DNA of 64,000 nucleotides, taken from the NCBI GenBank assembly GCA_902790635.1, contig CADASN010000014.1, forward strand, positions 1-64,000, read 5' to 3'. Within the stretch, counting starts at the first letter, position 1; each line of letters opens with the position of its first letter. Position numbers and translations under genes: made by a program. Under the pieces are notes generated by a model that made no database searches, had not been told where the DNA came from, and was given only the letters and a program-made list of their open reading frames with translations. The stretch comes from an uncultured Bacteroidia bacterium (GTDB lineage Bacteria; Bacteroidota; Bacteroidia; Bacteroidales; UBA932). Shown here one piece after another: positions 12,309-35,324 of the stretch.

Positions 12309-12360
12309 ATACCGATACCCTGATGACCAATTATTGAGATAGATTAACCAATTGTTTATA

Positions 12361-13629
12361 ATGAAAAAGATTCTCTCCACCCTCGCCGGCCTTGCGATCG
12401 CCGGCCTGACCGTCTTTGCCGCCAATGTCTGGCCTGACGGGACCAAGATGGACAAATGGTTCACATCCGCACCCGCCAAACTGAGCGGCCCGGAGGCTGT
12501 CCGTTATGTGATCACGGACTACGGCGTCGTGCGCGACAGCACGCTGCTGCAGACCGAGGCCATCCAGAAAGTCATCGACCTGGCTGCCGGGAACGGCGGC
12601 GGCACCGTCGTCATCCCGCAGGGTACCTTCCTGACCAGCTCGCTCTTCTTCAAGTCCAAGACGCACCTCTATCTCGAGAAAGGCGCCGTGCTCAAGGGCA
12701 GTGATGACGTGTCCGACTACGCGGTCGTGCCCGTGCACATCGAGGGTGTGATCCAGCCGTATATCGCCGCCCTGGTCAATGCCTACGAGTGCGACGGCTT
12801 CTCCGTCCGCGGCGAAGGCGTGATCGACGGCAACGGCCTGCGCTACTGGCGCGATTTCTGGACCCGCCGCCGGGTCAATCCCCGCTGCACCAACCTGGAG
12901 GCCCTGCGCCCGCGCCTGTTCTACGCCGCCAACAGCAAGAACGTGCTGCTGGAAGGCGTGACCCTGCGCAACCCGGGCTTCTGGACCACCCATTTCTACA
13001 AATGCGACTTCGTGCGCGTCAAGGACATCGTGATCTTCGCTCCGCAGAAGCCGGTTCCGGCCCCGTCCTCCGACGGCGTGGACGTGGACGGCTGCAACAA
13101 TTTCCACATCACCGGCTGCCGCTTCCAGAACAGCGACGACCTGATCGCCATCAAGGGCGGCAAGGGCCCCTGGGCGGACCAGGATCCCGACAATGCCACC
13201 AACAGCAACATCCTCGTGGAGAACTGCTGGTTCGGCCCGGGCTCCGCGATGGTGACCTTCGGCAGCGAGTGCGTGGGCGGTCACAACGTCATCCTGCGCA
13301 ACTGCGAGGGCGCCGGCGCTTCCCGCGTGCTCTGGCTCAAGATGCGTCCCGACACCCCGCAGAACTATGAGTACATCCTGGTGGAGAACATCACCGGCAC
13401 GGTGGGCAACTTCATCTACGTGCATCCCTGGACCCAGTTCTTCGACCTGAAGGGCCGCGAGGACATCCCGAAGTCCTATGGATCCCACATCCTGATGCGC
13501 AACTGCGACGTGATCTGCACCCGCAAGCCCTACGATATCGTCGAGAAGCCCGAGGAGTTCGAGCTCAGCGACATCGTCTATGAGAACATCAAGATCGACG
13601 ACCGTTCCCAGCAGCAACCCGGCAGATAA
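12361..13629 (+). CDS. Glycoside hydrolase family 28 protein, atypical active site
   Basis: A secreted parallel beta-helix protein of 422 residues; the signal peptide ends around residue 20 (LTVFAAN). GH28 landmarks are SSDGVDVDGC, NSDDLIAIKGG and RVLWLKMRP. The catalytic histidine segment expected between them reads FGPGSAMVTFGSE and has no His. This GH28 branch therefore differs from its neighbour at 9284 and may act on another galacturonoside or be impaired. The ATG at 12361 is used rather than a TTG at 12352. The stop TAA shares its last base with the next ATG, so translation of the two genes is probably coupled. Confidence 0.78.
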   Translation: MKKILSTLAGLAIAGLTVFAANVWPDGTKMDKWFTSAPAKLSGPEAVRYVITDYGVVRDSTLLQTEAIQKVIDLAAGNGGGTVVIPQGTFLTSSLFFKSKTHLYLEKGAVLKGSDDVSDYAVVPVHIEGVIQPYIAALVNAYECDGFSVRGEGVIDGNGLRYWRDFWTRRRVNPRCTNLEALRPRLFYAANSKNVLLEGVTLRNPGFWTTHFYKCDFVRVKDIVIFAPQKPVPAPSSDGVDVDGCNNFHITGCRFQNSDDLIAIKGGKGPWADQDPDNATNSNILVENCWFGPGSAMVTFGSECVGGHNVILRNCEGAGASRVLWLKMRPDTPQNYEYILVENITGTVGNFIYVHPWTQFFDLKGREDIPKSYGSHILMRNCDVICTRKPYDIVEKPEEFELSDIVYENIKIDDRSQQQPGR

Positions 13630-16055
13630 TGAGAAGGGCGGTTCTGACGGCGCTGGGCAGCCTGTGCTGCCTCTTCGCGCTCCAAGCGGCTGCTCCGAAG
13701 CAGAAGATGGCGAAGTTCATCCAGAAGGAGATGGACTTCGCCGTCCTGCAGTCTATGCGGATGTATGAGTCCGTCAAGGACCTGGACGGCCGCCTGGTCA
13801 ATACGGTGAAAAACGGAGTCCTGGAGACCTGCGACTCCAAAAACTGGGTGGCGGGCTTTTTCCCCGGTACCTTGTGGTATCTCTATGAATATACGGGCGA
13901 TCCGGCCATCCTGGATGCCGCTGGACGGATGACGGAGCGGATGGCTCCGGAGCAGTACAACCGGGACAACCACGACGTCGGATTCATGATCTACTGCAGC
14001 TACGGCAACGGCTGGCGCCTGACCGGCCGGGACGACTACCGGCAGGTGATCGTCAATGCCGGCAACTCCCTGTCCACGCGTTTCAGCCCGGCGGTCGGCT
14101 GCACCCGCTCCTGGAATCCGCAGCCCTGGAAACACCGGGATTTCATCGTCATCGTGGACAATATGATGAACCTGGAGCTGCTCACGGTGACCTCGGCCCT
14201 GACCGGTGACGGGAAATTCATGGACATGGCCCGTACGCATGCCAACACAACCATCCGCAACCACTACCGCCCGGACTACAGTTCCTTCCACGTCGTCAAT
14301 TACGACGAGGGGACGGGGGAGATCCTGAGCAAGGAGACCGAGCAGGGCTACCAGGATGGCTCCGCCTGGTCCCGCGGACAGGCCTGGGGCCTGTACGGCT
14401 TCACGATGATGTACCGCCAGACCCGCGATCCACGCTACCTGGAGCAGGCCGTGAACATCGGCAAGTTCCTGATGAACCACCCGGCCCTGCCCAAGGACAA
14501 GATCCCGTACTGGGACCTGGACGTGCCCGTGGAGAAAGATACGCCCCGCGACGCATCCTCGGCCTGTATCATGGCGTCCGCGCTCATCGAGCTGTCCACT
14601 TTCGTAGAGGATCCTGTCCTCTCGCAGCAGTTCCTGACGCTTGCGGAACAGCAGCTGACCTCGCTCTCCAAGGCGCCTTACAAGGCGAAGCCGGGGGAGA
14701 ATGCCAATTTCATCCTGATGCACTCGACAGCCAACAAGCCGGCGAATACCTTCGACAAGCCGCTGGTCTATGCGGATTACTACTACGTCGAAGCCCTGCT
14801 GCGCTACAAGCGCCTGCTGGAGGGCCGTCCCGTCGTGGACGTCCGCACGGTGGTCTCGGACCAGGCGGACCGGGAGCTCTGGATCGGCACCCTGGACCGC
14901 ATCGCCCGCCCGGTGCTGACGCACCTGGCCGCGGGTACGCTGAAGCAGAACCTGCCGTTCGAATCCCTTTCTGATGATCCGCACCGCAAGGAAGTGTCGC
15001 GCCTGGAGGCTTTCGGCCGCACGGTGTGCGGCATCGCTCCCTGGCTGGAGCTCGGCCCGGACGACACGCCCGAAGGATGCCTGCGTGCCGAGTTTATTGA
15101 CTTGACAATCAAGGCCTTATCGAATGCCGCCGATCCGGCTTGCCCGGACCGGCTGGTTTTCGACGGCAGCCATGGCGGGCAGGCCCTCGTGGATGCCGCT
15201 TTCCTGGCGCAGGGACTCCTGCGCGCCCCGACGCAGCTCTGGGGCCGACTGGGCCCGAAAGCGCAGGCAGACCTCGTTGCCGCGCTGAAGTCCTCGCGCG
15301 AGATCAAGCCCGGCGAGTCCAACTGGCTGCTGTTCGCCTCGATCGTCGAGGCGGCGCTGCTGGAATTCACCGGCAGCTGCGAGATGGACCGCCTCCTGTA
15401 CGGCATACGCCGTTTCCTCTTCGACCAGTGGTACAAGGGGGACGCCTGGTACGGCGACGGCGAGGAGTTCCACTTCGATTATTACAATTCGCTGGTTATC
15501 CAGCCGATGCTGACGGATGTGCTGCGGGTGCTGCAGGGCCGGGATGTCCCGGAGAGCCGGTACCTGCCGCAGCAGCTCCTGCGCGAAGCGCGCTACGCCG
15601 CCCAGCTGGAGCGCCTCATTTCCCCGGAGGGGACCTATCCTGCCGTCGGCCGCTCCATCACCTACCGCTTCGGATCCTTCCACGCCCTCGCGCACGCCGC
15701 CCTGCTGGGCATCCTCCCGGAGGAGCTGCCCGCCGCGCAGGTGCGTTCCGCGCTGACCGCCGTGATCCGGCGCCAGCTCGCGACCCCCGGCAACTTCGAC
15801 CGCGACGGCTGGCTGACGGTCGGGTTCTCCGGACACCAGCTCCACATGTCCGAGCCTTACATCAATACGGGCAGCGAGTACCTTTGCTGCGCCGTCTTCC
15901 TGCCGCTCGGCCTGCCCGCGGACGACCCGTTCTGGGCGGCTCCGGCCCGGGAGTGGTCGCAGCTCAGGGCCTGGAAGGGGATCGATATCGGCGCCGACCA
16001 TGCCCTGCATGACCTGCGTGCCGTCCCCATGCGCGACAGTTTGCAGAAGAACTGA
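13629..16055 (+). CDS. GH88 unsaturated uronyl hydrolase fused to DUF2264
   Basis: An 808-residue two-domain protein with a signal peptide (about 1-22). Residues 30-400 are a GH88 alpha/alpha barrel, which hydrates and releases the unsaturated uronic acid left by polysaccharide lyases; candidate acidic residues lie in DNHDVGFM and FIVIVDNMMN. Residues 415-800 match DUF2264, another alpha/alpha-toroid family (WLELGPDD; GDAWYGDGEEFHFDYYNS; VGFSGHQLHMSEPYINTGS). As I recall, DUF2264 members have been assigned beta-glucuronidase activity (GH154), so one protein may remove both unsaturated and saturated uronates. It overlaps the GH28 gene by one base. Confidence 0.8.
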   Translation: MRRAVLTALGSLCCLFALQAAAPKQKMAKFIQKEMDFAVLQSMRMYESVKDLDGRLVNTVKNGVLETCDSKNWVAGFFPGTLWYLYEYTGDPAILDAAGRMTERMAPEQYNRDNHDVGFMIYCSYGNGWRLTGRDDYRQVIVNAGNSLSTRFSPAVGCTRSWNPQPWKHRDFIVIVDNMMNLELLTVTSALTGDGKFMDMARTHANTTIRNHYRPDYSSFHVVNYDEGTGEILSKETEQGYQDGSAWSRGQAWGLYGFTMMYRQTRDPRYLEQAVNIGKFLMNHPALPKDKIPYWDLDVPVEKDTPRDASSACIMASALIELSTFVEDPVLSQQFLTLAEQQLTSLSKAPYKAKPGENANFILMHSTANKPANTFDKPLVYADYYYVEALLRYKRLLEGRPVVDVRTVVSDQADRELWIGTLDRIARPVLTHLAAGTLKQNLPFESLSDDPHRKEVSRLEAFGRTVCGIAPWLELGPDDTPEGCLRAEFIDLTIKALSNAADPACPDRLVFDGSHGGQALVDAAFLAQGLLRAPTQLWGRLGPKAQADLVAALKSSREIKPGESNWLLFASIVEAALLEFTGSCEMDRLLYGIRRFLFDQWYKGDAWYGDGEEFHFDYYNSLVIQPMLTDVLRVLQGRDVPESRYLPQQLLREARYAAQLERLISPEGTYPAVGRSITYRFGSFHALAHAALLGILPEELPAAQVRSALTAVIRRQLATPGNFDRDGWLTVGFSGHQLHMSEPYINTGSEYLCCAVFLPLGLPADDPFWAAPAREWSQLRAWKGIDIGADHALHDLRAVPMRDSLQKN

Positions 16056-16100: not shown

Positions 16101-17180
16101 ATGGCTATCACCCTCAAACAGGGCTGCAAGTACGCCCTTCTCGTCCCCACTTCGATGGGACTCCGCATTACCCCCGAAAACGGCCAGCCGGTCCAGAGCA
16201 GCGACATCTTCCGCCTCCAGGCCACCAGCGCAGAGACCAATGTCGCCAGCGTGGCCTCTTACCTCGGCCTTCCCGTCAAGGTCCTGACGACCTTTGTCAA
16301 AGGCAGTCCCTTTGCTTCTTTCATCAAGTCCAACCTCCGCGCCCGCGGAATGGATTTCGAAGGACCTGAGGTGGCGCAGGGCGGCCCCTGGGGCTATCGT
16401 CACCAGATCAACATCGCCGACAGCGGCTACGGCTCCCGCGGACCCCGCGTCTGGAACGACCGTGCCGGTGAAGTCGGCCGTACGCTCAATGTCAAGGATT
16501 TCGACCTCGACCGCATCTTCGGCCAGGAGGGCGTCCAGATCGTCCACCTCTCCGGCCTGATCGGCGCCCTGAGCCCCGAGACCAGCAAGTTCTGCCTCGA
16601 GATTGCCCGCGCTGCCAAGAAATACGGCACCCGCATCGCTTTCGACCTCAACTACCGCGCCTCCTTCTGGATCGGCCGCGAGCAGGAGCTGCACGACATC
16701 TTCTCCGAGATCTGCTCGATCGCGGACATCCTGATCGGCAACGAAGAGGACTTCCAGCTCTGCCTGGGCATCGAAGGCCCCGAGGCCGGCGGCAAGGACA
16801 TCGCTGCCAAGATCAACGGCTTCAAGGAGATGATCGGCCGCGTCAAGGCCCAGTATCCCAACGCCCAGGTCTATGCCACCACGCTCCGCCAGGTCAACAA
16901 CACCAACAGCCACAACTGGGGCGCCATCATGCTCGAGGGTGACAACTGGCACGTGGTCGAGCCGCGCGAGATCCACGTCCTCGACCGCATCGGCGGCGGC
17001 GACGGCTTCGTCGGCGGTCTCCTCTATGCCATCCTCAAGGGCTGGGAGCCCGAGAAATGGATCCAGTTCGGCTGGGCCACGGGCGCTCTCGCCACGACCA
17101 TGCTGACCGACTATGGCCAGCCGGCCGACGAGGAGCAGGTTTGGAGTATCTGGGCAGGCAACGCACGCGTAAAGAGATAG
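16101..17180 (+). CDS. PfkB-family sugar-acid kinase (KDG kinase or gluconokinase-like)
   Basis: A 359-residue cytoplasmic ribokinase-fold kinase. The catalytic loop DRIGGGDGFVGG holds the general base Asp301. FDLNYRASFW (181-190) resembles the FDxNxR segment of 2-keto-3-deoxygluconate kinases. It is the first gene of a tight operon with LarA-type epimerase, PdxB-like dehydrogenase, Gnd, UxaE and a mannonate-forming reductase. By homology it could phosphorylate KDG; by context (Gnd present, no mannonate dehydratase or KDPG aldolase in the window) it could make 6-phosphogluconate from gluconate. The substrate is not resolved. Confidence 0.75.
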   Translation: MAITLKQGCKYALLVPTSMGLRITPENGQPVQSSDIFRLQATSAETNVASVASYLGLPVKVLTTFVKGSPFASFIKSNLRARGMDFEGPEVAQGGPWGYRHQINIADSGYGSRGPRVWNDRAGEVGRTLNVKDFDLDRIFGQEGVQIVHLSGLIGALSPETSKFCLEIARAAKKYGTRIAFDLNYRASFWIGREQELHDIFSEICSIADILIGNEEDFQLCLGIEGPEAGGKDIAAKINGFKEMIGRVKAQYPNAQVYATTLRQVNNTNSHNWGAIMLEGDNWHVVEPREIHVLDRIGGGDGFVGGLLYAILKGWEPEKWIQFGWATGALATTMLTDYGQPADEEQVWSIWAGNARVKR

Positions 17181-17184
17181 TCCC

Positions 17185-18462
17185 ATGATGTATTTCGAAA
17201 GAGGTTCCCGCACGGATGTCATCACCGCGGAGGACACCCGGGCGATCCTGAAGCAGGTTTTTGATGCGATGGGGCCGCGCAAGCGTGTCCTGGCGATCCC
17301 GCCGGACTTCACCCGCTTCAACTCCTACGCCGGTCCGATCACGGAGATGGTCAATGACTATTTCGGCGATGCCTTGACGGATATCATGCCGGCGCTCGGC
17401 ACCCATTCCCCGATGAGCGACGAGCAGCTCTCCGTGATGTTCCCCAGCGTTCCGAAGGACAAGTTCCGCGTGCACGACTGGCGCAATGACATCGTGACCG
17501 TCGGCACCGTTCCCGGCTCCTATGTGAAGGAGGTCTCCGAAGGACGGCTTGACTATGAGATGAACGCGCAGGTCAACAAGCTCCTGCTCGACCCGTCCTT
17601 CGACCTGGTCCTGTCCATCGGGCAGGTTGTGCCCCACGAGGTGATCGGCATGGCCAACTACACGAAGAACATCTTCGTGGGCGTGGGAGGCTCCGACTTT
17701 ATCAACAAGAGCCACTTCATCGGCGCCAGCTACGGCATGGAGCGCATCATGGGCCGCGCCAAGAGCCCGGTACGCGACGTGTTCGAGTACGCCAAGGTCC
17801 ATTTCCTGTCGAAGGTGCCCATCGTGTATGTGCTGACCGTCCGGGCCAAGGACGAAGCCAGCGGCGAGATGGTGACCCGCGGCCTGTTCATCGGCGACGA
17901 TTTCGAATGCTTCCAGAAGGCGGCCGACCTGTCCCTCGCCACCAATTTCATTATGGTGGAGCGGGAGATCAAGAAATGCATCGTCTATCTCGATCCGGAG
18001 GAGTTCAAGAGTACCTGGCTGGGCAACAAGAGCGTTTACCGCACCCGCATGGCGCTGGCCGACGACGCAGAGCTGATCGTTCTGGCCCCCGGCCTCAAGG
18101 AGTTCGGCGAGGACAAGACCATCGACGGCCTGATCCGCAAATACGGCTACAAGGGTACGCCCCACACCCTGGAGTGCACCAACGCCAATGCCGACCTGCA
18201 GGCCAACCTCGGCGCTTCCGCGCACCTGATCCACGGCTCTTCCGAGGGCCGCTTCCGGATCATCTACTGCCCGGGCGACGGGATGACCCGCGAGGAAATC
18301 GAAGGCGTGGGCTTCGAATACTGCCACTACAACGACATGGTGGCCCGCTACCCGCTCGAATCCCTCAAGGACGGCTGGAACGTCGTGAACGGAGAAGAAG
18401 TGTACTACATCAGCAATCCGGCACTCGGCCTCTGGGCCTATCCTGACCGCTTCAAGGACTGA
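17185..18462 (+). CDS. LarA-family (nickel-pincer) racemase/epimerase, DUF2088
   Basis: A 425-residue lactate racemase homologue. Family-defining residues are all present when aligned with L. plantarum LarA: Asp41/Arg44 (DFTR, as Asp72/Arg75), His74 (GTHSPMS, as His108), His151 (VVPHE, as His174), Lys161 (cofactor-linked, as Lys184) and His177 (nickel ligand, as His200). The spacings His151-Lys161-His177 of 10 and 16 residues equal those in LarA. It should therefore use the nickel-pincer nucleotide. LarA homologues epimerise various 2-hydroxy acids; one group acts on D-gluconate/D-mannonate. Context with UxaE, a mannonate-type reductase and Gnd favours that reaction. It starts 4 bp after the kinase. 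Confidence 0.82.
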   Translation: MMYFERGSRTDVITAEDTRAILKQVFDAMGPRKRVLAIPPDFTRFNSYAGPITEMVNDYFGDALTDIMPALGTHSPMSDEQLSVMFPSVPKDKFRVHDWRNDIVTVGTVPGSYVKEVSEGRLDYEMNAQVNKLLLDPSFDLVLSIGQVVPHEVIGMANYTKNIFVGVGGSDFINKSHFIGASYGMERIMGRAKSPVRDVFEYAKVHFLSKVPIVYVLTVRAKDEASGEMVTRGLFIGDDFECFQKAADLSLATNFIMVEREIKKCIVYLDPEEFKSTWLGNKSVYRTRMALADDAELIVLAPGLKEFGEDKTIDGLIRKYGYKGTPHTLECTNANADLQANLGASAHLIHGSSEGRFRIIYCPGDGMTREEIEGVGFEYCHYNDMVARYPLESLKDGWNVVNGEEVYYISNPALGLWAYPDRFKD

Positions 18463-18463
18463 G

Positions 18464-19600
18464 ATGAAGATTGTATGTGACGACAAGATCCCCTTCCTCC
18501 GCGGAGTGCTCGAGCCCTTCGCGGAGGTGGTGTATCTGCCCGGGAAGCAGACGACGCCCGAGGTGGTCCGGGATGCGGACGCCATCATCACCCGCACCCG
18601 CACCAAGTGCGACGCCGCGCTGCTCACCGGATCTTCCGTGAAGGTGATTGCGACCGCCACCATCGGCTTCGACCATATCGATACCGCCTGGTGCGAGTCG
18701 CACGGCATCCTCTGGCGCAACGCCCCCGGCTGCAATTCCTGGTCCGTCAAGCAGTACATCGCTTCGGTGCTGGTCAGTCTGGCGCGACGCCACGGCCTCG
18801 ACCTGTCGGCGATGACCCTCGGCGTGGTCGGTGTGGGCAATGTCGGATCGAAGGTCGCCGAAGTGGCTTCGCTGCTGGGCATGAAGGTCCTGCTCAACGA
18901 CCCGCCGCGCGCCCGCGCGGAAGGGGAGCGGGGCTTCGTGTCCCTGGACGAGGTGATGGAGCGCGCCGACATCATCACGCTCCACGTCCCCCTGACGAAG
19001 GAAGGGGAGGACGCTACCTGGCACCTTTTCGATGCCGCCCGCATCGGGCGGCTCCGCCGGGACCAGTTCCTCTTCAATTCTTCCCGCGGCCCTGTCGTGG
19101 ACAATGCGGCCTTGAAGGCTGCCCTGAAGGCTGGAGCGCTGCGCGGCGCCGTGCTGGATGTCTGGGAGAACGAGCCGGACATCGACCGGGAACTGCTCGG
19201 ACTGCTCGAGTATGCGACGCCCCACATCGCCGGCTACAGCGCCGACGGCAAGGCCAACGGCACGACCATGAGCGTGCGTACCGTGGCTTCCGTGCTGGGA
19301 CTGCCGCTCACGGACTGGACCGCCTCCGGCGTGCCCGCGCCCGCACAGCCGCTTTCGTTCTGCATCGATGCTGCCGGCAAGTCCGGTGCGCAGGTGCTCG
19401 CGGAGGCCATCCTCCACACCTACGACGTGCAGCGGGATACGGATGCGCTGCGCGCCGCTCCCGAGCTGTTCGAGAAGCTCCGCGGGGACTATCCCGTGCG
19501 GCGCGAACCGACGGCTTTCTCCCTGCAACTCAAGGGCGGGACCGCCGAACTGGCGGGGACGCTCTCCAAAATCGGATTCCAACTAACAAACAACCAATAA
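18464..19600 (+). CDS. PdxB-like D-2-hydroxyacid dehydrogenase, catalytically complete
   Basis: A 378-residue NAD-dependent dehydrogenase resembling 4-phosphoerythronate dehydrogenase. The Rossmann motif is GVGNVG (residues 123-128) and the catalytic Arg208 (SSRGPVVD), Glu237 (ENEP) and His254 (TPHIAGY) fall at the same residue numbers as in E. coli PdxB. PdxB oxidises 4-phosphoerythronate for vitamin B6 synthesis. However, this copy sits inside a sugar-acid operon one base after the LarA gene, so it may instead oxidise or reduce a sugar acid of that pathway. A second homologue at 34293 lacks the arginine, so this copy may also be the genome's functional PdxB. Confidence 0.75.
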   Translation: MKIVCDDKIPFLRGVLEPFAEVVYLPGKQTTPEVVRDADAIITRTRTKCDAALLTGSSVKVIATATIGFDHIDTAWCESHGILWRNAPGCNSWSVKQYIASVLVSLARRHGLDLSAMTLGVVGVGNVGSKVAEVASLLGMKVLLNDPPRARAEGERGFVSLDEVMERADIITLHVPLTKEGEDATWHLFDAARIGRLRRDQFLFNSSRGPVVDNAALKAALKAGALRGAVLDVWENEPDIDRELLGLLEYATPHIAGYSADGKANGTTMSVRTVASVLGLPLTDWTASGVPAPAQPLSFCIDAAGKSGAQVLAEAILHTYDVQRDTDALRAAPELFEKLRGDYPVRREPTAFSLQLKGGTAELAGTLSKIGFQLTNNQ

Positions 19601-19609
19601 ATTATCATT

Positions 19610-21067
19610 ATGCAACCTGTTTCTGATATCGGACTCGTCGGACTCGCCGTCATGGGTGAGAACCTGGTCCTCAACATGGAAAGCAAAGGCTTCCACGTCA
19701 GCGTGTTCAACCGCACGGTCGAGAAGGTCGACAAATTCATCAACGGCCGCGGCAAGGGTAAGAACTTCTACGGTGCCCACTCCCTCGAGGACCTGGTCGC
19801 TTCCCTGAAGACCCCGCGCCGGGTCTTCCTGATGGTCAAGGCCGGCCAGCCGGTCGATGACTTCATCGACAAGCTGATCCCGCTCCTGGAGCCGGGTGAC
19901 ATCATCATCGACGGCGGCAACTCCCATTTCCCGGATACGGCCCGCCGTACTGCCTATGTGGAGAGCAAGGGCCTGCTGTACATCGGTACCGGCGTGTCCG
20001 GCGGCGAAGAAGGCGCCCTGAAGGGTCCCTCCATGATGCCCGGCGGCTCCCCGGCCGCATGGCCGCATGTCAAGCCCATTTTCCAGAGCATCTGCGCCAA
20101 GGTCGAGGACGGTTCCCCGTGCTGCGACTGGGTGGGTGAGAACGGTGCCGGCCACTTCGTGAAGATGGTTCACAACGGCATCGAGTATGGTGACATCCAG
20201 CTCATTTGCGAGTGCTACCAGATCATGAAGGATATCCTCGGCATGACCAACGAAGAGATGCACCAGACCTTCGCCGAGTGGAACAAGGGCGACCTCGACA
20301 GCTACCTCGTGGAGATCACCCGCGACATCCTGGCCAAGAAGGACGAGGACGGCAAGTACGTGCTGGACTACATCCTCGATACCGCCGGCCAGAAGGGTAC
20401 CGGCAAGTGGACGGCCATCGCTTCCCTGGACCAGGGCGTTCCCCTGACCCTCATCGGCGAATCCGTGTTCGCCCGCTGCCTGTCCGCCCAGAAGGAAGAG
20501 CGCGTCGCCGCCAGCAAGGTGCTCGTCGGCCCGAAGCCGGCCAAGTTTACCGGTGACCGTGCCGCTTTCCTGGAGGATCTCCGCAAGGCCCTCTTCTCCG
20601 CCAAGGTCGTCTCCTACGCCCAGGGCTACACGCTGATGCGTGCCGCGGCCAAGGAATACGGCTGGAACCTCAACTACGGCGGCATCGCCCTGATGTGGCG
20701 CGGCGGCTGCATCATCCGCAGCGTGTTCCTCGGCAAGATCAAGGAAGCCTTCGACAAGAATCCGGAACTGCCGAACCTCCTGCTTGACTCCTACTTCCAG
20801 GGCAAGCTCGCCGAGGCCCAGCAGAGCTGGCGCAACGTGATCGCCTGCGCAGTCATGAACGGTGTCCCGGCCCCGTGCCTCGCCGCTGCCCTCGAGTACT
20901 ACGACGGCTATCGCTGTGACCGTCTGCCCGCCAACCTCCTGCAGGCCCAGCGCGACTACTTCGGCGCCCACACCTATGAGCGCACCGACAAGCCGCGCGG
21001 AGAGTTCTTCCATACCAACTGGACCGGCCACGGCGGCGATACCGTTGCCGGTACGTACATCGCGTAA
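19610..21067 (+). CDS. gnd: 6-phosphogluconate dehydrogenase (decarboxylating)
   Basis: A full-length 485-residue enzyme converting 6-phosphogluconate to ribulose-5-phosphate, CO2 and reduced nicotinamide. Visible motifs are the N-terminal dinucleotide fold GLAVMGENL, DGGNSHFPDT, the signature GVSGGEEGALKGPSMMPGG, the catalytic Lys/Asn segment GAGHFVKMVHNGIEYGD, and a C-terminal tail ending in the HTNWTGHGG type. Neither zwf nor pgl is nearby. Its place between a LarA-family epimerase/kinase and UxaE implies that its substrate arises from uronate or gluconate rather than from glucose-6-phosphate, which is inference. Confidence 0.95.
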   Translation: MQPVSDIGLVGLAVMGENLVLNMESKGFHVSVFNRTVEKVDKFINGRGKGKNFYGAHSLEDLVASLKTPRRVFLMVKAGQPVDDFIDKLIPLLEPGDIIIDGGNSHFPDTARRTAYVESKGLLYIGTGVSGGEEGALKGPSMMPGGSPAAWPHVKPIFQSICAKVEDGSPCCDWVGENGAGHFVKMVHNGIEYGDIQLICECYQIMKDILGMTNEEMHQTFAEWNKGDLDSYLVEITRDILAKKDEDGKYVLDYILDTAGQKGTGKWTAIASLDQGVPLTLIGESVFARCLSAQKEERVAASKVLVGPKPAKFTGDRAAFLEDLRKALFSAKVVSYAQGYTLMRAAAKEYGWNLNYGGIALMWRGGCIIRSVFLGKIKEAFDKNPELPNLLLDSYFQGKLAEAQQSWRNVIACAVMNGVPAPCLAAALEYYDGYRCDRLPANLLQAQRDYFGAHTYERTDKPRGEFFHTNWTGHGGDTVAGTYIA

Positions 21068-21072
21068 TGATG

Positions 21073-21172
21073 GACGCCGCTGCGCGGTCTGTCAGACGGG
21101 CGGACGGATATTGTTTTTTCGGACAGGTTTGCCGAAAAACCAATTTCCGCTCCGCTTCGCTGCAGCGGCGTC
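21073..21172 (+). repeat. Nested inverted repeats between gnd and uxaE
   Basis: The outer arms GACGCCGCTGC (21073-21083) and GCAGCGGCGTC (21162-21172) are perfect 11-bp complements. An inner hairpin TTTTTCGG (21115-21122) / CCGAAAAA (21132-21139) lies between them. The 140-bp gap is by far the longest inside an otherwise tightly packed operon. It could be an mRNA-processing or attenuation structure or a small inserted repeat. Confidence 0.6.
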
Positions 21173-21207
21173 AGATTTTAGATAACTACTAGTAAACCAA
21201 TAACATT

Positions 21208-22353
21208 ATGTTAAAAATCGGAAAATATTCCTTCGGTACCGGCGACCGTTTCGCCCACGAGGGAGTGAACCAGCTCAAGGCCCTCATCGAGGCCGAGAAG
21301 CTCTTCGGCGTGCACTTCGTGCCCGTCTGGAACAAATCCAACCGCGAGCATAATATCATCGGCACCGAACCGCTCAGCACCCGCCAGGAGGCTGATGCCG
21401 CCGTCAAGGCACTGGGCTACAAGGACCAGTATTTCGTAGATGCGGACCACATCAACCTGAACAACGTGGACCGTTTCATCGATGCTTCCGACTTCTTCAC
21501 CATCGATGTCGCGGACTATATCGGCCATTCCGGCACGATGGAGGAGCGTTTCCTCCCGGCCATCAAGGAGGCCGGCAAGATCTACCGCCACATCGCCGCC
21601 AAGAAAGGCGAGGGCAACTTCGTGACCGAGGTTTCCATGGATGAGGTGGACGAGGCCCAGACCCCCGAGGAGCTTCGCTATATCCTGAAGGAGATTGCCA
21701 AGGAGCAGATTCCCGTCCAGACCATCGCCCCGAAGTTCACGGGACGTTTCAACAAGGGTGTGGACTACCGCGGTGACCTGGCCCGCTTCGAGAAGGAGTT
21801 CGAGCAGGACCTGCTCGTCATCGACGAGGCGGTCAAGGAGTATGGCCTGCCTGATAACCTCAAGCTCTCCATCCACTCCGGTTCCGACAAGTTCAGCATT
21901 TACCCGATCATGGGCCGCCTGATCCGCAAGTACGACAAGGGCATCCACATCAAGACCGCCGGCACTACCTGGCTTGAGGAGAACATCGGTCTCGCACTGG
22001 CCGCTCCCGAGGGGCTCGCGCTCGCGAAGAAGATCTATGTGAACGCCCTGGGCCGCATGGACGAACTGACCGTTCCGTACGCTACCGTCATCGACGTCGA
22101 CAAGACGGCCCTCCCGTCCCCCGAAGAGGTGGAGAAGTGGGATGCCGAGACCTACGCCAAGACCATGCGTCACAACCAGGCCGAGCCGCTCTACAACCCG
22201 AACTTCCGCCAGCTCATCCACGTCAGCTTCAAGATCGCTGCCGAGCTCAAGGACGAGTTCCTGCCGGCGCTCGAGAAGTACACCGATGTCATCGGCGACC
22301 AGATTACCGAGAACCTTTGCGAAAGACATATCAAGAGGCTTTTTGCTGAGTAA
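21208..22353 (+). CDS. uxaE: Tagaturonate C4-epimerase
   Basis: A 381-residue protein of the tagaturonate epimerase family, which interconverts D-tagaturonate and D-fructuronate so that galacturonate can enter the glucuronate branch. The family was first assigned in Thermotoga. Recognisable segments are FGTGDRFAHEG near the N-terminus, YFVDADHINLNNVDRFI, FFTIDVADYIG, and IHSGSDKFSIYP with likely metal or substrate residues. It is followed after 3 bp by the fructuronate-reductase-like gene, which would use its product. The family assignment is firm; the direction of flux is inferred from the pectin genes upstream. Confidence 0.85.
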   Translation: MLKIGKYSFGTGDRFAHEGVNQLKALIEAEKLFGVHFVPVWNKSNREHNIIGTEPLSTRQEADAAVKALGYKDQYFVDADHINLNNVDRFIDASDFFTIDVADYIGHSGTMEERFLPAIKEAGKIYRHIAAKKGEGNFVTEVSMDEVDEAQTPEELRYILKEIAKEQIPVQTIAPKFTGRFNKGVDYRGDLARFEKEFEQDLLVIDEAVKEYGLPDNLKLSIHSGSDKFSIYPIMGRLIRKYDKGIHIKTAGTTWLEENIGLALAAPEGLALAKKIYVNALGRMDELTVPYATVIDVDKTALPSPEEVEKWDAETYAKTMRHNQAEPLYNPNFRQLIHVSFKIAAELKDEFLPALEKYTDVIGDQITENLCERHIKRLFAE

Positions 22354-22356
22354 CAG

Positions 22357-23943
22357 ATGAAACTGACTGATATTCTTTCCAAGGGTTTCAACCCTGCGGA
22401 GTGGGAGCAGAAAGGCTACCAGCTCCCCAAGTTTGATATCGCTGCGGTTCGGGAGAAGACCCGCAAGGAACCCACCTGGGTACACTTCGGCGGTGGCAAT
22501 ATCTTCCGTGCTTTCCCTGCGGCCATGCTCAACGATGCGCTGAACACCGGCCAGTATGACCGGGGCGTCATCGTCGCCGAGACCTTCGATTTCGAAGTGG
22601 TGGACAAAGCCTATGCGCCCTACGACAACCTTTCCCTCTCCGTCAGCCTCCAGTCTACGGGTACGGTCGAGAAGAAGGTCATCGCCAGTGTCACGGAGGC
22701 CCTGAAGGCCGACTACCAGTTTGAGGACTGGCAGCGTCTCGTGGACATCTTCCGCGCACCTTCGCTGCAGATGATCTCCTTCACCATCACCGAGAAAGGT
22801 TATGGATACAACGAAGCCGACCTCGCGCGTGGCCTGAAGCCCGTCTTCGCCCTGGGCAAAGTGACCGCCCTGCTTCGCGAGCGCTGGGAGGCGGGATGCC
22901 TGCCCCTGACGGTGCAGTCCATGGACAACTGCTCGCACAACGGCGACCGTGTCAAGGCCGGTGTCATGGCTTATGCCGAGCGCTGGGTGAAGGACGGCCT
23001 CGTGCCGCAGGCTTTCCTGGATTATCTCCAGAACGAGACCCTGATCACTTTCCCCTGGTCCATGATCGACAAGATCACCCCGCGTCCCCACGGAAAGGTC
23101 AAGGCGATGCTCGCCGAGGACGGATTCGAGGACAATGAATACATCGAGACCGAGAAGCACACCTTCACGGCTCCCTTCGTCAACGCCGAAGAGACGCAGT
23201 ATCTGGTCATCGAGGACAACTACACCAACGGCCGTCCGCCGCTGGATCTCGGCGGAGCCCTCTACACTACGCGTGAGACGGTGGACAAGGTCGAGACCAT
23301 GAAGGTGACGACCTGCCTCAATCCGCTCCACACGGCCATGTCCATCTACGGCTGCATGCTGGGCTATACCCTGATCTCCGCGGAGATGGCGGATCCCGAC
23401 ATCCGTTCCTTCATCCAGAAGATCGGCTATATCGAGGCCATGCCCGTCGTGACGGATCCCGGCGTGTTGAATCCGTACGAGTTCATCGGCGCGGTGATCA
23501 ACCGCCGCCTCCCGAACCCCTTCATGCCCGACGCCCCGCAGCGTATCGCGATGGATACCTCCCAGAAGCTGGCCATCCGCTTCGGCGAGACCATCAAGAA
23601 GTACATCGCCCGCGGACTGGACAAGGAGAACCTCCAGCTGATTCCGCTCGTGCTGGCCGGCTATGCCCGTTACCTGAAAGGAATCAAGGACGACGGCACC
23701 CCGTTCGATCCTTCTCCGGATCCTATGCTCGAAGAGCTGCAGGCCATCGTGGCTCCGCTCCAGATCGGCAAGCCCGACCAGGACTACAGCTGCCTGAAGG
23801 CCCTGTATACCCGCAAGGACGTCTTCGGCCTCGACCTCTATGAAGCAGGTCTTGGCGAGAAGATCGAAGGCATGGTGAAGGAACTCTTTGCCGGCACCGG
23901 CGCCGTCCGTGCTACCCTGCACAAATACGTGGACGCCCGCTAG
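22357..23943 (+). CDS. uxuB: Mannitol dehydrogenase-family oxidoreductase, fructuronate reductase-like
   Basis: A 528-residue long-chain polyol dehydrogenase-type protein, the size of fructuronate reductases (UxuB/UxaB). It shows the N-terminal nucleotide-binding segment VHFGGGNIFRAFPAAML, the central SMDNCSHNGDRVKAGV stretch and the lysine-containing MKVTTCLNPLHTAMS typical of the C-terminal domain. It should reduce D-fructuronate to D-mannonate in the cytoplasm, directly after the UxaE step. It is the last gene of the operon and is followed by a strong terminator. The usual next enzyme, mannonate dehydratase UxuA, is not in the window. Confidence 0.82.
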   Translation: MKLTDILSKGFNPAEWEQKGYQLPKFDIAAVREKTRKEPTWVHFGGGNIFRAFPAAMLNDALNTGQYDRGVIVAETFDFEVVDKAYAPYDNLSLSVSLQSTGTVEKKVIASVTEALKADYQFEDWQRLVDIFRAPSLQMISFTITEKGYGYNEADLARGLKPVFALGKVTALLRERWEAGCLPLTVQSMDNCSHNGDRVKAGVMAYAERWVKDGLVPQAFLDYLQNETLITFPWSMIDKITPRPHGKVKAMLAEDGFEDNEYIETEKHTFTAPFVNAEETQYLVIEDNYTNGRPPLDLGGALYTTRETVDKVETMKVTTCLNPLHTAMSIYGCMLGYTLISAEMADPDIRSFIQKIGYIEAMPVVTDPGVLNPYEFIGAVINRRLPNPFMPDAPQRIAMDTSQKLAIRFGETIKKYIARGLDKENLQLIPLVLAGYARYLKGIKDDGTPFDPSPDPMLEELQAIVAPLQIGKPDQDYSCLKALYTRKDVFGLDLYEAGLGEKIEGMVKELFAGTGAVRATLHKYVDAR

Positions 23944-34292: not shown

Positions 34293-35324
34293 TCAGAAAT
34301 AAAACTCGCGCCGGTAGCTGTAGTTCGCCCGGAGTTCGCTGAAGCGCTCCGGCGACATCCGGAACATGAAGTCGTCCGTGAAGATGGGATAGTTGTACTG
34401 GATGATCGAGGCGATCTGCCCCTGCGTCTTCTCGTGCACGTCCACATGGACGGCCTGGTATTCGAGGATCTCCGTGGTGGGGAAGAAGTCGTACAGCTCG
34501 GCCAGGCCGAAGAAACGTGCGACGGCGCGGATGGCCAGCGAGGTACCGATCTGCTTGCCCTGAAGGGTGTAGCCGGCGATGTGCGGGGTGGCGATGTCCA
34601 CGAGGTCCATCAATTCGCGGTTGATGTCGGGTTCGTGGCACCAGGTGTCGAGCGCGACGGGGCCGAGCCTGGGGATGGCCCGGATGAGGTCTTCCTCGAC
34701 GACCAGCTCCCCCTGGGCGGTGTTGATGAAGAAGGCGCCGGGTTTCATTTTCTCGAAGAAGCCGGCATCCGCCATCCCGCGGGTCGTGTCGTTGACCGGG
34801 ATGTGCATCGTGACGATGTCGGACCCGGACAGGACGGTGTCCAGGTCGTGGAATTCGGTGTGCCATTCTTTCTCCTGGCGCCAGGGGTCGTAACGCAAGG
34901 TCTTGAATCCCAGGGCGAGCGCCATCTCTTCGACGCGCGTCCCGGCGGAGCCCAAGCCGATGATGCCCATCGTGGCTCCCGCCAGGGAAATGCTTTTGCG
35001 CGCGGCGGTTCCGTAGAGGGCGGAGAAAACGTAATTCGTGACGCCGCCGGCGTTGCAGCCGGAGGCGTTCCGGACGAAGATGCCGTGGTCCTTGCACCAG
35101 GCCTGGTCGATGTTGTCCATGCTGACCGTGGCGGTGGCGATGAGTTTGACGGCCGTGCCGTCCAACAGGGCTTCGTCGCAGCGGGTGCGGGTGCGGATGA
35201 CCAGGGCGTCCGCATCCATCAGGTCCTCCCGGCGGATCTCCGGCCCGTCGAGGTAGACCACTTCCGCCCAAGGCTCGAAGACGCCTTCGACGAAGGGAAT
35301 GGCTTTGTCGATGACGAATTTCAT
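34293..35324 (-). CDS. PdxB-like dehydrogenase lacking the catalytic arginine
   Basis: A 343-residue D-2-hydroxyacid dehydrogenase homologue, clearly similar to the protein at 18464 (RTRTRCDEALL; ATPHIAGYTLQGKQIGT). The dinucleotide motif GLGSAG and catalytic Glu231 and His248 are present. The arginine expected in the xSRG motif is Gln204 (NTAQGELVVE, codon CAG). Without Arg the enzyme should bind substrate poorly, so it may have lost activity or changed substrate. It starts 4 bp inside the end of the DUF721 gene, in an operon recF-DUF721-this-DUF4301-AI-2E. Confidence 0.78.
   Translation of the reverse strand: MKFVIDKAIPFVEGVFEPWAEVVYLDGPEIRREDLMDADALVIRTRTRCDEALLDGTAVKLIATATVSMDNIDQAWCKDHGIFVRNASGCNAGGVTNYVFSALYGTAARKSISLAGATMGIIGLGSAGTRVEEMALALGFKTLRYDPWRQEKEWHTEFHDLDTVLSGSDIVTMHIPVNDTTRGMADAGFFEKMKPGAFFINTAQGELVVEEDLIRAIPRLGPVALDTWCHEPDINRELMDLVDIATPHIAGYTLQGKQIGTSLAIRAVARFFGLAELYDFFPTTEILEYQAVHVDVHEKTQGQIASIIQYNYPIFTDDFMFRMSPERFSELRANYSYRREFYF

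Follow-up and report, generated by a model that had tools for sequence, protein, structure and literature searches.

A candidate hexuronate bypass to 6-phosphogluconate in Bacteroidales, with a group-18 LarA homologue often found where larB and larC were not detected

The canonical UxuA-KdgK-Eda branch of hexuronate catabolism ends in pyruvate and glyceraldehyde 3-phosphate, with no loss of CO2. A different fate for mannonate was proposed for galacturonate use in Thermotoga by Rodionova in 2012, namely epimerisation to gluconate followed by gluconate kinase and 6-phosphogluconate dehydrogenase (Gnd) (as reported in PMC6978723). Within the LarA superfamily, conversion of D-mannonate to D-gluconate is reported for homologues of groups 19 and 20, shown on two GntE enzymes in 2020 (PMC7583248), and a gluconate 2-epimerase from a eukaryote has been described (PMC11770544). 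The galacturonate pathway of Lactobacillus suebicus also leads from mannonate to 6-phosphogluconate and Gnd and is redox-neutral to ribulose 5-phosphate, but it differs in that the kinase acts first and a phosphoketolase follows, and its genes were not identified there (PMC6978723). Here we describe a six-gene locus in 64,000 nucleotides of DNA from an uncultured Bacteroidia bacterium (Bacteroidales; UBA932; assembly GCA_902790635.1, contig CADASN010000014.1, positions 1 to 64,000). This stretch (the window) corresponds to contig C14 in a 2.24 Mb genome that is 83% complete. The locus encodes a PfkB-family kinase (KIN), a group-18 LarA homologue (LAR18, model NF052594), PdxB, Gnd, UxaE and a mannitol-dehydrogenase-family oxidoreductase.

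We favour, with some reserve, the reading that the locus encodes a hexuronate bypass to 6-phosphogluconate and the pentose phosphate pathway, with the substrates deduced from gene content. Tagaturonate derived from galacturonate would be epimerised to fructuronate by UxaE, and fructuronate would be reduced to mannonate by the product of the last gene. LAR18 would then invert C2 of mannonate to give gluconate, using a tethered nickel-pincer-type cofactor, and KIN would phosphorylate gluconate to 6-phosphogluconate, the order of epimerase and kinase being presumed. Decarboxylation by Gnd would yield ribulose 5-phosphate and regain the reducing equivalent used by the reductase. 4-Phosphoerythronate is a known inhibitor of Gnd and may be removed or consumed by PdxB. 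The UxuA-KdgK-Eda branch could operate alongside, from other contigs. The locus brings together UxaE, reductase, LarA epimerase, kinase and Gnd, the reductase being assigned by family and position.

Like the Thermotoga maritima GntE route, the locus combines UxaE and a LarA-type enzyme proposed to interconvert mannonate and gluconate with a kinase and Gnd, which would lead hexuronates into the pentose phosphate pathway, but it has a LarA of group 18 instead of group 20, a PfkB kinase instead of GntK, and an added PdxB. With the canonical branch it shares the steps from galacturonate to mannonate; the genes of that branch lie elsewhere in the genome and include another PfkB kinase. A preliminary description of this DNA had suggested a possible new galacturonate route. 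The gene set does behave as a hexuronate-to-6-phosphogluconate route, because D-mannonate oxidoreductase, UxaC, UxaE and a LacI regulator are among its neighbours in relatives, and because KIN and Gnd co-occur with LAR18; the claim of novelty does not stand, given the 2012 proposal for Thermotoga and the GntE activity in PMC7583248. The pathway is likely, is well supported by comparative genomics, and had been proposed before. In the literature searched, no paper was found that demonstrates the joined pathway with this group-18 epimerase. The genomic comparison, in Bacteroidales and in further phyla, supports a passage of pectin carbon to the pentose phosphate pathway without net redox cost that has been proposed and little tested, and it points to the kinase genes of this route.

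The comparative evidence comes from an order-level sample of 198 genomes, where the group-18 model had matches in 29 at E 0.001 and was exceeded at its cut-off by 27. The LAR18-positive set numbers 28, after addition of G154 (copy truncated by a contig end) and removal of G003 (19 bits), and was set against 22 LAR18-less genomes that were not a random draw but were chosen as the first in the list and by their handle numbers. A wider set of 108 loci consists of the window, 27 loci from the order sample and 80 named loci (among the matches listed). Full-length Gnd was found in 25 of the 28 LAR18 genomes and in two of the 22 LAR18-less ones (Fisher p about 8e-9, kinship ignored), with two further LAR18-less genomes carrying a short 6-phosphogluconate-dehydrogenase-type protein. 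The three LAR18 genomes without full-length Gnd are G074 and G154, in both of which a contig end truncates the cluster, and G169. Orthologues of KIN followed the same pattern (22/28 against 0/22; Fisher p about 5e-9, kinship ignored). Neighbourhoods were counted at the 62 loci where LAR18 is flanked by 4.5 kb or more on both sides, with families named from one or two representatives each. The SDR D-mannonate-oxidoreductase family (54 loci) and Gnd (53) are the most frequent companions, followed by KIN (41), PdxB (34), a LacI regulator (30), UxaE (26) and UxaC (24); genes of the textbook branch are less frequent (KdgK-like kinase 16, Eda 11, UxuA 7). Many other genomes repeat the order kinase-LarA-(PdxB)-Gnd.

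Gnd is the only PF00393 match in the window's own genome. The preliminary description had pointed to Gnd without zwf, and this was borne out: Zwf was found in 17 of the 28 LAR18 genomes (one partial) and in four of the 22 LAR18-less ones, and nine of the 25 LAR18 genomes with full-length Gnd, the own genome (83% complete) and eight others, gave no Zwf match. At locus L037 (G118), extra partial Gnd pieces lie right behind the full-length Gnd in the same cluster.

LAR18 is a candidate mannonate/gluconate 2-epimerase, and group 18 has been hypothesised to epimerise a hexonate, as groups 19 and 20 do (PMC7583248). Besides scoring above the group-18 cut-off, LAR18 has a LarA-like predicted fold (AlphaFold model, mean pLDDT 88). 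The top structural match of the model is 4NAR, the T. maritima GntE (TM 0.70, 22% identity), followed by lactate and malate racemases, and residues H74, H151, K161 and H177 have identical counterparts in 4NAR. Among the residues checked are what we take to be the cofactor lysine and a nickel-ligand histidine. The catalytic histidines of LarA are given as His108/His174 (PMC11770544), and LAR18 has conserved histidines at the corresponding places.

KIN is a candidate gluconate (or mannonate) 6-kinase and probably not the genome's 2-keto-3-deoxygluconate (KDG) kinase. It falls far under the cut-offs of four KDG-kinase models (171.5/700, 102.8/440, 44.4/400 and 30.9/400 bits, score/cut-off), although its closest solved relative is a KDG kinase, 2AFB. 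UxuA and Eda were not found in the window by tblastn with relatives' UxuA and Eda, as the preliminary description had noted. The textbook branch is nevertheless present, and the argument from its absence does not hold for the genome as a whole: UxuA lies on contig C5 of the own genome, and on C8 a KdgK-like kinase lies next to Eda and an MFS transporter. KIN might then be an ordinary KDG kinase serving UxuA and Eda from a distance, with Gnd and LarA incidental, and the C8 kinase is likewise below every curated KDG-kinase cut-off (510/700, 245/440, 115/400 and 49/400 bits). We consider this very improbable. The C8 kinase adjoins Eda, scores 510 bits against 172 for KIN on the best KDG-kinase model and is 51% identical to the Eda-linked kinase of L095, whereas KIN is only 27-31% identical to Eda-linked kinases. 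An alignment of 69 KIN sequences with 11 Eda-linked kinases showed differences at dozens of conserved positions; shared conserved positions include the arginine of a D-L-N-x-R stretch and a putative catalytic aspartate, whose functional roles are presumed. KIN is also missing from all 22 LAR18-less genomes, ten of which have Eda (Eda was found in 22 of the 28 LAR18 genomes), and 12 of the 108 loci hold KIN plus a second, KdgK-like kinase. The separate KdgK-like kinase elsewhere in the own genome suggests that the operon kinase is a different, dedicated one, which favours the preliminary description; that KIN is not the KDG kinase is what these scores and the better candidate on C8 suggest at the level of sequence.

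The gene order, with KIN directly 5' of LAR18 at 61 of the 108 loci, is compatible with either order of the two steps. In extracts of L. suebicus, no gluconate was reported to form from mannonate, and with ATP 6-phosphomannonate and some 6-phosphogluconate appeared (PMC6978723). By analogy, KIN might make 6-phosphomannonate, to be epimerised to 6-phosphogluconate by LAR18 or another enzyme. This seems unlikely to us, as the LarA homologues reported active on mannonate use the free acid, and the nearest structure to LAR18 is one of them.

Several points weigh against the bypass. In PMC7583248, 13 LarA homologues were assayed, none of them from group 18, six of the 13 were inactive, and the authors caution that gene context can mispredict substrate. 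That paper also gives a KM for mannonate of 120 mM for the group-19 GntE1, for which its authors suspected another substrate. LAR18 and its kinase might accordingly act on another hexonate pair (e.g. altronate/allonate or idonate/gulonate) and merely neighbour hexuronate genes; we judge this a poor prospect, because the D-mannonate-oxidoreductase-type SDR and the Gnd at most well-flanked loci best fit mannonate entering and 6-phosphogluconate leaving. As to the bypass from mannonate itself, a genome with UxuA, a KdgK-like kinase and Eda has no need of it, and a search for UxaC that covered the window and three further stretches of the own genome, short of the whole genome, gave no match. G169 (97% complete) has KIN and LAR18 and no Gnd match genome-wide, and G006 has LAR18 and Gnd with neither kinase type nearby and no KIN genome-wide. 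A last point concerns the cofactor: larB, larC and larE are all missing over cut-off in the own genome and in ten of the other 27 LAR18 genomes from the order sample.

The nickel-pincer nucleotide is made by LarB, LarE and LarC. A genome search for their genes had been suggested in the preliminary description, and its outcome became the most striking point of this analysis: in the own genome larC had no match, and larB and larE had matches only far under cut-off. An active enzyme in this genome and the ten others is therefore unexplained. In the order set, where all three genes were searched for in 50 genomes, larC, larB and larE were above cut-off in the same 18, comprising 17 of the 28 LAR18-positive genomes and one of the 22 LAR18-less ones (G016). 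The named set, where larB and larC were tested in the genomes behind 50 of the 80 loci (many of the remaining 30 being short contigs), gave a similar split: larC and larB occurred in the same 18 genomes, and both were missing over cut-off in the other 32. The latter include all 22 genomes tested from loci L069-L092, which are nearest to the window and mostly carry titles that point to rumen, abomasum, gut or faeces, as well as Draconibacterium aestuarii strain Z1-6. Taken together, 35 of the 78 LAR18 genomes have both larB and larC over cut-off, 43 have neither and none has only one. Cofactor genes were thus not found in over half of the LAR18 carriers examined, contrary to what is expected of a host of an enzyme dependent on this nucleotide and unlike T. 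maritima, whose larC and larB served as search controls. No description of larA carriers without larBCE was found in the literature searched, and one may already be in print.

Incomplete assemblies were rejected as a general explanation: seven of the 11 order-sample genomes without larBCE are 96-100% complete, none of the 22 nearest named genomes has larC or larB, and D. aestuarii Z1-6 lacks both. An absence in a single genome may still be false, since larB and larC often lie close together and one lost contig can remove both. Decay of LAR18 in lineages without the cofactor genes was also rejected. D41, T43, R44, H74, H151, K161 and H177 are kept in 35/35 sequences from genomes with larB and larC and in 43/43 from genomes without, and the closest pairs across this divide are 89% identical. 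Over the last 300 residues no two of the 78 LAR18 sequences are identical, though close strains may nonetheless be common to the order sample and the named set. A tree of the 78 sequences implies nine changes of larB/larC status, at least four of them forced by well-supported branches; such counts do not distinguish gains from losses, and many of the deeper branches lack resolution. The window's LAR18 falls in a group of 26, all without larB and larC (support 100/98).

A third candidate, that larBCE serve another LarA where they are present, was set aside as well. LAR18 is the only protein matching Lar_N in 13 of the 17 order-sample genomes with the cofactor genes (four have others) and in all 11 without, and of 11 named genomes with larB and larC that were tested, nine have one Lar_N protein and two have more; divergent LarA proteins could be missed, as the Lar_N model scores LAR18 itself at only 24-48 bits. 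Since LAR18 is the only Lar_N protein in most order-sample genomes with larBCE, the cofactor there is probably made for LAR18. G016 has larB, larC and larE and no Lar_N match; many cyanobacteria are reported with the same combination (PMC11796402). In four of the 35 genomes with both genes (G143, G221, G225 and G226), LarC is short and divergent, with open frames of 268-284 aa and a two-piece match to roughly positions 1-230 of 375, and larB is present; G221, G225 and G226 hold L095, L105 and L108, from Carboxylicivirga and another Marinilabiliaceae.

The kinase shows variation of its own. KIN is absent from six LAR18 genomes (G006, G022, G038, G074, G136 and G154), and all of these except G006 have the gene order oxidoreductase - PfkA-type - HAD - LAR18, the best model for the PfkA-type protein beside LAR18 being a PPi-dependent phosphofructokinase. 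The same three genes, differently arranged, occur at L142, a planctomycete locus. PfkA-type and HAD proteins lie upstream of LAR18, in the usual place of the PfkB kinase, at L034, L050, L055, L057, L058 and L142. Judged by position, it looks as if the PfkB kinase is replaced by an unrelated PfkA-type kinase at some loci.

Our opinion is evenly divided on a broader proposal: that many bacteria unable to produce the nickel-pincer nucleotide through the known pathway make use of group-18 LarA epimerases, with the cofactor or a late precursor salvaged as a community public good, like a vitamin, or supplied by a second biosynthetic route, or replaced by a different cofactor, and with the hexonate kinase swapped between unrelated PfkB and PfkA types. 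Because LAR18 proteins up to 89% identical occur with and without larB and larC, salvage, a second route and an altered cofactor should be separable by feeding and loading experiments. The epimerase that lacks a known cofactor supply and the apparent exchange of kinases merit further work.

PdxB lies directly 5' of 40 of the 67 full-length Gnd genes in the loci set. In a Bacillus subtilis mutant, 4-phosphoerythronate is reported to inhibit Gnd and to make gluconate toxic, and PdxB is not mentioned there (PMC6449344). Given this inhibition, PdxB may protect Gnd. That PdxB substitutes for the missing cofactor is not favoured: across the 25 closest loci (the window and L069-L092), the next gene after LAR18 is PdxB in 14 and Gnd in seven. 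A second PdxB-like protein is encoded in the window at 34308-35324 on the minus strand (305 bits, under the cut-off of 434; 42% identical to the operon PdxB), which suggests that the operon PdxB may have a role of its own.

The six genes of the locus lie where the preliminary description placed them, all on the plus strand, and profile searches agree with the families it had given (Table 1). It had spoken of one operon. The genes are co-directional and the first four are spaced by 1-9 nt, but a gap of 140 nt between Gnd and UxaE holds one terminator-like match (four were found in a scan of the region against 5.4 expected by shuffling), and there may be one or two transcripts.

Table 1. Locations and best-supporting profile matches of the locus genes and their upstream neighbours (positions in the window)
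Feature	Coordinates	Strand	Profile match
Rhamnogalacturonidase-like glycoside hydrolase	12352..13629	+	best model NF049899 568 bits, under cut-off 650
GH88 + DUF2264 fusion, 808 aa, pectin-type	13629..16055	+	PF10022 356 bits, PF07470 42 bits
PfkB-family sugar-acid kinase (KIN)	16101..17180	+	PF00294 75.6 bits, cut-off 25.8
LarA homologue group 18, 'putative hexonate epimerase' (LAR18)	17185..18462	+	NF052594 638 bits, cut-off 500
PdxB, 4-phosphoerythronate dehydrogenase	18464..19600	+	NF001309 462 bits, cut-off 434
Gnd, decarboxylating NADP 6-phosphogluconate dehydrogenase	19610..21067	+	TIGR00873 771 bits, cut-off 426.7
UxaE, tagaturonate/fructuronate epimerase	21208..22353	+	PF16257 176 bits, cut-off 27.1
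Mannitol-dehydrogenase-family oxidoreductase, likely fructuronate reductase (UxuB role)	22357..23943	+	PF01232/PF08125

Upstream of the six genes and in the same direction lie the GH88 + DUF2264 fusion, directly 5' of the kinase, and the rhamnogalacturonidase-like gene; the fusion is a likely source of substrate for the locus. The last gene gave weak matches to fructuronate reductase (124/603 bits, score/cut-off), D-arabinitol 4-dehydrogenase (120/600) and tagaturonate reductase (107/359). It sits after UxaE, in the place where L076 and L085 carry the SDR D-mannonate oxidoreductase, which supports a fructuronate-reductase role, and from family and position this role is likely. L069 and L070 hold orthologues that are 93% and 92% identical.

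The bypass seems to be variable within the window's genus. One member, G008 (listed as 100% complete), gave no match for LAR18, KIN, Gnd, Zwf or LarC and has Eda. Among the matches listed, the LAR18 closest to that of the window is 96% identical and comes from a Bacteroidales assembly from roe-deer abomasum.

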